Shown piece after piece: positions 30,053 to 32,350 of a stretch of DNA of 49,841 nt. The notes beneath the pieces were generated by a model, which was not told the DNA's origin, ran no database searches, and saw nothing but the letters and a program-made list of their open reading frames with translations. The translations under genes and the position numbers were made by a program. Positions within the stretch are counted from its first letter, which is position 1; every line of letters begins with the position of its first letter. The DNA comes from Bacteroidales bacterium Bact_13 (lineage in GTDB: Bacteria; Bacteroidota; Bacteroidia; Bacteroidales; UBA932), in the NCBI GenBank assembly GCA_001602845.1, contig LUZE01000161.1, forward strand, positions 1 to 49,841. Direction: 5' to 3'.

Positions 30053-30088
30053 CAAATGTAATAAAAAAGAAAAAAAGTTATACCTTTG
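30053..30088. promoter_or_regulatory. Divergent promoters: glsA-like (minus) and tRNA-Gln (plus)
   Basis: TACATTTG on the minus strand (30053-30060) serves the acyltransferase pair. TACCTTTG on the plus strand (30081-30088) lies 128 bases upstream of tRNA-Gln. No convincing -33 elements are seen in the A-rich spacer. Confidence 0.55.
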
Positions 30089-30216
30089 CACTTTCCAGCC
30101 GGACCTCACCGCCAGTGGTTAACGGGCGGCATCAGCCGCTAGCGGAGACCGGGCAGCGGAGACCCTGCGGGATAGCAAGGTCGGAGCGAGGGGGTTCGGG
30201 GGCAGTGCCCCCGTAA
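30089..30216 (+). other. GC-rich leader upstream of tRNA-Gln with hairpin
   Basis: A noncoding stretch with the palindrome CCGCTAGCGG, two copies of GCGGAGACC and a 7-bp hairpin CGGGGGC / GCCCCCG (30197-30213) that ends three bases before the mature tRNA 5' end. The sequence from about 30170 to 30213 resembles repeats I associate with Bacteroidales intergenic DNA, but that memory is not verified here. The hairpin may help 5' processing. Confidence 0.45.
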
Positions 30217-30287
30217 TGAGATATGGTGTAATGGTAGCACAACAGATTTTGGTTCTGTTTGTTCAGGTTCGAATCCTGATATCTCAA
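30217..30287 (+). tRNA. tRNA-Gln (anticodon TTG)
   Basis: A 71-nt cloverleaf. The acceptor stem TGAGATA pairs with TATCTCA, the D-loop contains AATGGTAGCA, the anticodon stem ACAGA/TCTGT encloses the loop TTTTGGT with anticodon TTG, and the T-arm is CAGGTTCGAATCCTG. The discriminator base is A and CCA is not encoded. Confidence 0.96.
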
Positions 30288-30302
30288 CAAAGTAACCAAT
30301 TC

Positions 30303-30395
30303 AATACACCACTGTGGAACCTCCGAGTAGTCTGAACCTCAGCGACGGGCACCCATGCACCGGGTCCCCGGCCAGGTGGTGTATTCCCAACCACC
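30303..30395 (+). promoter_or_regulatory. Candidate structured leader with mutually exclusive hairpins
   Basis: A 10-bp stem joins AATACACCAC (30303-30312) to GTGGTGTATT (30376-30385), closing a region with two internal hairpins (CTG-AACCT-CAG, and a CGGG/CCCG plus ACCC/GGGT stem). The right arm can instead pair downstream: GGTGGT (30375-30380) with ACCACC (30390-30395), which touches the ATG at 30396. The two pairings exclude each other, the layout of a riboswitch or thermosensor. I do not recognise it as a known class. No promoter lies between it and tRNA-Gln, so the mRNA may be cut from the tRNA transcript. Confidence 0.5.
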
Positions 30396-31034
30396 ATGGC
30401 ACTATACCTCAAGAAAGAACTCGAAGATGACGCCCGGATCTACGTCTGGGAAATCACGGAGACCGAAGAAGAGCTGATGGCCAATACGGCCGTCCCTGAC
30501 AACGAGCTGGAAGAACTCCAGTACACGCGCAGCGAAGCCCGCCGAAGGGAGAAGCTTGCCGAGCGCGCCCTGCTGAACGAGATCTTTCCCGAAAAGCTCT
30601 ATCTGGGCCACCACGACAACGGCAAGCCGTATCTCCAGAATACGGCCATGGAGATCAGCATCTCCCACACCAACCGTTTCGTGGCCATCCTGCTCAGCCC
30701 CGACGAGAACCTGGGCATCGACATCGAAAGCCTCGACCGGGATTTCTCGGCCGTGGAGAAAAAGGCGCTCAGCGAAGACGAGATCGAAGACCTGGAGGAC
30801 GACAAGCGGAAGACGCTGCAGCTGGCCATCTACTGGTGCGCCAAGGAGGCCATCTACAAGAGGATGTCCATCTCCGGCGTCGATTTCGCCGAGCAGATCG
30901 AGGTCGAGCGCTTTACGCCCCGCGACGAAGGCGAGATCGAGGCGACGTTCTACCACAAGGACGGCACGGAGCTCGAATTCGAGCTCAGCTACGAGGTGTT
31001 CGAGAACCATGTGATGGTCTGGGTTGTAGGATAA
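30396..31034 (+). CDS. 4'-phosphopantetheinyl transferase superfamily protein
   Basis: A 212-residue Sfp/AcpS-superfamily enzyme. The signature residues are in ISISHTNRFVAILLS, LGIDIESL and WCAKEAIYKRM, which bind CoA and Mg2+. It transfers the phosphopantetheine arm from CoA to a serine of carrier proteins. In Bacteroidota it may modify acyl carrier protein or other carrier domains; no polyketide or peptide synthetase is seen in this window. It lies just after the candidate switch leader and 26 bases before tyrS. Confidence 0.88.
   Translation: MALYLKKELEDDARIYVWEITETEEELMANTAVPDNELEELQYTRSEARRREKLAERALLNEIFPEKLYLGHHDNGKPYLQNTAMEISISHTNRFVAILLSPDENLGIDIESLDRDFSAVEKKALSEDEIEDLEDDKRKTLQLAIYWCAKEAIYKRMSISGVDFAEQIEVERFTPRDEGEIEATFYHKDGTELEFELSYEVFENHVMVWVVG

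Positions 31035-31060: not shown

Positions 31061-32349
<1,289 letters not shown>

Positions 32350-32350
<1 letters not shown>

Follow-up and report, generated by a model that had tools for sequence, protein, structure and literature searches.

Organization of the locus

The window is a stretch of 49,841 nucleotides from the Bacteroidales bacterium Bact_13 (contig LUZE01000161.1, forward strand). In its second half, a short leader separates a tRNA-Gln gene from the gene of a 4'-phosphopantetheinyl transferase (PPTase), which is followed by tyrS. The leader carries two stems (P1 and P2), a hairpin (P3) and a short open reading frame, here called the leader ORF, whose first five codons form an invariant core (Table 1). 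The original prediction for this locus described the stems and overlooked the ORF.

Table 1. Positions of the leader elements and neighboring genes in the window
Feature	Positions	Strand	Remarks
-7 promoter box TACCTTTG (Bacteroidetes TAnnTTTG)	30081-30088	+	Upstream of tRNA-Gln; pattern scan
tRNA-Gln (TTG)	30217-30288	+	ARAGORN, Rfam
Stem P1, 5' arm AATACACCACT	30303-30313	+	Directly 5' of the leader-ORF start codon; covarying, 37 leaders
Leader ORF	30314-30430	+	GTG start, 38 codons, stop TGA at 30428-30430; open frame, legal starts, gldE homology of start region
Invariant core GTGGAACCTCCGAGT, codons 1-5 (xEPPS)	30314-30328	+	Common to gldE starts of sister genera
Hairpin P3	30346-30370	+	Inside leader ORF; covarying in genus; predicted fold
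Stem P1, 3' arm GGTGGTGTATT; also P2, 5' arm	30375-30385	+	
Stem P2, 3' side (ACCACC plus TGGC)	30390-30400	+	Touches PPTase AUG and includes part of it
PPTase superfamily gene (PF01648)	30396-31034	+	Gene taken as gated
tyrS	31061-32350		3' of PPTase

The sequence TAnnTTTG is the consensus of the Bacteroidetes -7 box (PMC7366714). The only such box found by pattern scan on the + strand near the leader, before the PPTase gene, is the one that precedes the tRNA, and scans for sigma-70 promoters and intrinsic terminators around the leader gave nothing. Of the 41 tRNA-bearing leaders, 39 have the box before the tRNA, and 1 has it between the tRNA and the PPTase gene. The box is short, and some of the matches at larger distances are due to chance. 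These positions agree with the earlier claim that there is no promoter between the two genes and support the proposal that the PPTase message is derived from the tRNA-Gln transcript; tRNA-Gln and PPTase are probably carried on one transcript. In the genera that lack the tRNA, nearly all leaders have the box about 31-39 nt 5' of the leader-ORF start, and the leader ORF is therefore the putative first cistron.

Directly before the tRNA-Gln of the window (positions 30125-30216) there is a G+C-rich element of roughly 90 nt, about ten more partial copies of which, with 76-100% identity, are scattered over the genome. It is an interspersed repeat that separates the tRNA from the promoter box.

Distribution of the leader

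By nucleotide search, 17 of 61 relatives were seen to carry the leader, and each of them belongs to the same genus. Of these 17, 16 were used to construct a covariance model, with which the leader was detected in 33 of the 40 genomes of the genus. When strict filters were applied to the 295 genomes of the order, a single one was retained, namely the window's own. A weak match to the model in another genus of the family (L053) lies 5' of a PPTase gene, without a tRNA. Other weak matches (L052, L054, L056, L057 and L059) lack the combination of leader and PPTase and were set aside; matches to the core in other families of the order, at a kamA-like gene (L062) and at L060 and L061, were judged from their context to have arisen by chance.

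Conservation of the leader outside the species, on which the original prediction had been made to depend, is confirmed: homologous leaders are present in the genus and in sister genera. Some sister species lack the leader altogether. In the latter, including some relatives in genus g197, the ATG of the PPTase gene follows about 10 nt after the tRNA-Gln. Such leaderless relatives (L072, L075, L206, L211-L213, L218 and L219) are natural deletions and could be used as controls.

The P1 stem

P1 is formed by the pairing of AATACACCAC (30303-30312) with GTGGTGTATT (30376-30385) and has 10 bp, or 11 if the flanking T-G pair is counted. Pairing was evaluated in 37 distinct leaders, six of which are GenBank records without an established genus. 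In the MAFFT alignment A3 the 3' arms of the TTG group are misaligned, and the alignment fitted to the covariance model is biased toward the structure; P1 was therefore also tested sequence by sequence, without any alignment. In this test a stem of 5-12 bp was found in all 37 leaders, the shortest (5 bp) being that of L049. When the window's own arms were shuffled 300 times, no shuffle paired as well. Over the 37 leaders the combined significance is high (Fisher chi2 366, 74 df), and the arms paired better with their own partners than with partners swapped between species in 5000 of 5000 permutations. In the model-fitted alignment, two-sided changes occur at nine of the ten pairs and the covariation signal is lost upon sliding the 3' arm by 1-3 columns.

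In the 37 leaders, the 5' arm of P1 ends 0-6 nt 5' of the start codon, and the distance from the start codon to the beginning of the 3' arm is mostly 57-67 nt, L203 having 46. The arms themselves are built from pairs that are unrelated in sequence, among them CACCAC/GTGGTG, GCGCTGT/ACAGTGC, ATAACAC/GTGTTAT, TTTATTGCACA/TGTGCAATAAA and AACATTAATAC/GTATTAATGTT. Because the stem is present in all 37 leaders and is made from many unrelated sequences, P1 is, to judge from these comparisons, maintained by selection.

The P2 stem and the distal hairpins

P2 is formed by GGTGGT (30375-30380) and ACCACC (30390-30395), and its extension, GCCA/TGGC, takes in the UG of the PPTase AUG at position 30396. 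The 3' arm of P1 is common to both stems, so that they are mutually exclusive. P2 is confined to the clade with short leaders, defined by a distance of 77-83 nt between the leader-ORF start and the PPTase gene. It can form in all 13 short-leader species, by routes that differ between them (GGTGGT/ACCACC, GTGGTGT/ACACCGC, AAGTGGT/ACCACTT and CCATGGG/CCCATGG). Over these 13 species, which are close relatives, the Fisher chi2 is 88.5 with 26 df. Swapping of partners between species gives a p value of about 0.01, and in the window alone the stem is weak (shuffle p 0.07). The covariation of P2 is modest, weaker than that of P1. Both of the mutually exclusive stems that had been predicted beside the PPTase ATG are therefore found at the expected positions, P1 beyond chance and P2 in every short leader; the covariation that had been proposed as their check is strong for one and modest for the other.

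Energy models favor P2 in most short-leader species and P1 in L004. The whole leader is not unusually stable when folded (z -1.25). In the window, the pairing probability of P1 is 0.01. Since the predicted folds there favor P2 over P1, it is uncertain whether the two stems constitute a balanced switch.

In long-leader species the place of P2 is taken by a separate G+C-rich hairpin before the PPTase start, which has a run of U in L041, L049, L188 and L230. Inspection of single predicted folds places the end of the leader ORF within or past this distal hairpin in nearly all long leaders, the exceptions being L207, in which the ORF ends just before the hairpin, and L214, which has no clear hairpin. 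In L087, L088 and L230, a terminator-like hairpin followed by a run of seven T is located inside the leader ORF, about 60-100 nt before the PPTase gene. This suggests translation-dependent attenuation of transcription in that genus.

The leader ORF

In the window the leader ORF overlaps the start of the PPTase gene out of frame and terminates 35 nt past the A of its AUG. The length of the ORF in the window's genus is 30-53 codons. The end of the stop codon is 16 nt past the A in 11 of 13 short leaders, and the stop is situated from 34 nt before to 17 nt after the A in long ones. The first base of the start codon is only ever G, T or A, giving GTG, TTG or ATG, all of which are legal starts. Beyond the core, the frame stays open for 26 codons in 35 of 37 leaders, against an average of 13 and at most 21 when the sequences are shuffled, and 8 in each of the other frames.

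The peptide itself is nearly unconstrained past EPPS in the window's genus, the median dN/dS being about 0.6-0.7. Because it varies almost freely there, the sequences suggest that translation of the leader ORF matters more than its product. Leaders of the Cryptobacteroides type have an ORF of about 65 aa with a median dN/dS of 0.25, which clearly indicates selection at the protein level. In L231, L237, L239-L244 and L248-L253, all of this type, the ORF encodes a conserved protein of that size ending in ...VCAxxARTGLSYIG, 5' of the PPTase gene, and the codons for VCA..ART form a hairpin, GTGTGTGC/GCACGCAC. It is possible that this remnant ORF specifies a small protein or an arrest peptide.

Origin of the invariant core

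The sequence TGGAACCTCCGAGT is the same in all 32 leaders of alignment A3. That alignment contains no further invariant columns outside the core, and no well-conserved unpaired nucleotides are evident there. In the sister genera g28, g188, g201 and g202 the same 15 nucleotides, varying only in the third base of codon 4 (C or G), open a long ORF that immediately precedes the PPTase gene. This ORF family is GldE (NCBIfam TIGR03520); a query taken from the family scores 444.6 bits, where the cut-off is 376. The leader resembles GldE in its first codons and in its position upstream of PPTase, and differs from it in retaining the start region only, the membrane and CBS parts being gone. No GldE above the 376-bit cut-off of TIGR03520 was found in the 40 genomes of the window's genus. 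Because the core has the same start and position as the gldE genes of the sister genera, and no GldE exceeds the cut-off in the genus, the core is, on these comparisons, a remnant of the gldE start whose gene body has been lost in the window's genus.

Shortened forms are found also in g26, g189, g195, g197 (with one extra codon) and g198 and in single members of g188 and g203; none was found in g27, g186 or g194. The synonymous sites of the first codons are nearly fixed, even in full gldE genes, and the core is unchanged in gldE genes without an obvious P1. Across the order Bacteroidales, gldE ORFs commonly start with TTG GAN (loci L145-L174), an oddly conserved non-AUG start. A search of the literature yielded no work on gldE together with PPTase and one incidental paper on gldE/CBS.

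A proposed translation-coupled gate

We consider it slightly better than an even chance (probability about 0.55) that the leader functions as a translation-coupled gate derived from the remains of the lost gldE. A short ORF with a legal start is kept open in relatives, and inspection of the predicted folds indicates that it reaches or overlaps the structure over the downstream start, as such a gate would require. The two stems, the open frame, the start shared with gldE, the loss of gldE and the promoter-like boxes before the tRNA are seen in the sequences themselves. Translation of the leader ORF is inferred, as are the direction in which it would act on PPTase and any signal to which it might respond.

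In the ancestral arrangement, gldE with a non-AUG start (TTG GAA CCT CCN AGT) would have been located directly 5' of PPTase. The gldE body would then have been lost in the genus, its start persisting as the present leader ORF. P1 would pair the bases just before the leader-ORF start with bases about 60 nt into the ORF and thereby restrict initiation. Upon opening of P1, its 3' arm would become free to form P2 with the bases touching the PPTase AUG in short-leader species; in long-leader species the G+C-rich, sometimes U-tailed hairpin would act in this position. A ribosome translating the leader ORF would enter or cross the last hairpin and so open the PPTase start. In the window, termination of the leader ORF 35 nt past the PPTase A would leave the AUG exposed for new initiation or reinitiation.

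A more elaborate version of this mechanism, which we think improbable, is that the gldE start has been exapted as a sensor of the state of the ribosome and has been kept in several genera for such use. A ribosome initiating or pausing at the early EPPS codons (the prolines, codons 3-4) would cover the P1 5' arm; P2 would then form and the PPTase start would be shut, while free passage through the leader ORF would open it. PPTase synthesis would in that case track translation or EF-P status.

Alternative explanations

The main rival of the gate is a passive vestige, in which the start of gldE and the stems, as decaying remains or as a translation-enhancing sequence, have no part in regulation and P1 serves only in the processing or stability of the transcript next to tRNA-Gln. 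It has this rank because the complete leader has been lost from some g197 relatives. The loss of the leader from some sister species and the nearly unconstrained peptide of the window's genus are what would be expected of a vestige. However, repeated compensation has kept P1 in 37 leaders, the frame stays open, and the start region has been retained after the loss of gldE in several genera, so that we regard a purely passive role as unlikely.

The reading as a riboswitch or thermosensor, put forward in the original prediction, is not upheld, as the invariant block consists of inherited gldE codons that are present also in gldE genes without an obvious P1. A metabolite-binding riboswitch would have a ligand, CoA or a carrier-related compound, bound by the domain that P1 closes, stabilizing P1 and freeing the PPTase start. 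The mutually exclusive stems at the start codon, of which P2 is found only in the short-leader clade, the conservation of P1 and P3 and the absence of an Rfam class speak for this reading. When the window and seven homologues were compared with Rfam, at the gathering threshold and at a permissive one, only the tRNA reached a gathering score and nothing else significant was found on the leader, in agreement with the earlier statement that the leader matches no known class. However, a riboswitch of a new class should have an unpaired ligand-binding core specific to the RNA, whereas the sole invariant block here is shared with gldE starts and there are no clear conserved unpaired nucleotides outside it. 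Moreover, the spacing is variable (the P1 loop of L203 is much shorter, with about 45 nt from the start to the 3' arm), and the domain enclosed by P1 is an open frame. No sign that the leader binds a metabolite was found; the reading is not favored, and a riboswitch appears very improbable. A T-box, suggested by GUGGAACC after the tRNA-Gln, was considered as well and dropped: coding accounts for the block, and the discriminator base is not the one expected.

Equally hard to sustain is a leader ORF whose product has a function of its own, the stems being secondary. The conserved ORF of the Cryptobacteroides-type genomes speaks for it, but the peptide of the window's genus is free to vary past EPPS, and it overlaps PPTase. 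Least probable of all is a thermosensor in which P2 would hide the PPTase AUG and come apart on warming. P2 does include part of the AUG and is the prevailing structure in the ensemble predicted for the window. However, it is limited to the short-leader clade, P1 as the better conserved stem would be left without a role, and many record titles name animal-gut sources, where the temperature is nearly constant.

Comparison with known systems

If the leader is a gate of the kind described, a structured regulatory leader can arise from the remains of an upstream gene after its deletion. While the body of gldE has been lost, its start region has been kept across several genera, with a covarying stem around the start codon. 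The gldE origin explains an invariant block that otherwise looks like part of an aptamer, and the locus offers a testable case of leader-ORF control in a phylum without Shine-Dalgarno sequences.

The translational attenuators of the erm type have a leader ORF and an arm with alternative pairings, and one of these pairings conceals the start codon that follows. The PPTase leader likewise has an ORF and an arm with alternative pairings, one of them over the start. It differs in that no antibiotic-stalling peptide is known in it, and in the order of the arms and the origin of the ORF.

In the ppe2 leader of Mycobacterium tuberculosis, an upstream ORF is needed for PPE2 (PMC11260477). There too a short upstream ORF extends over the gene start and downstream translation has been proposed to depend on its translation, but the ppe2 leader contains a B12 aptamer, none being evidenced in the PPTase leader, and the arrangement of stop and start is unlike (PMC11260477).

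In outline, the leader would work like translational coupling via RNA unfolding or termination-reinitiation (reviewed in PMC12548453), in which an upstream ORF overlaps or abuts a gene and its translation opens the structure over the start, as is proposed here. In contrast to that coupling, the upstream ORF of the PPTase leader is the remnant of a gene, equipped with its own start clamp, P1, whose 3' arm would double as the blocker of the downstream start.
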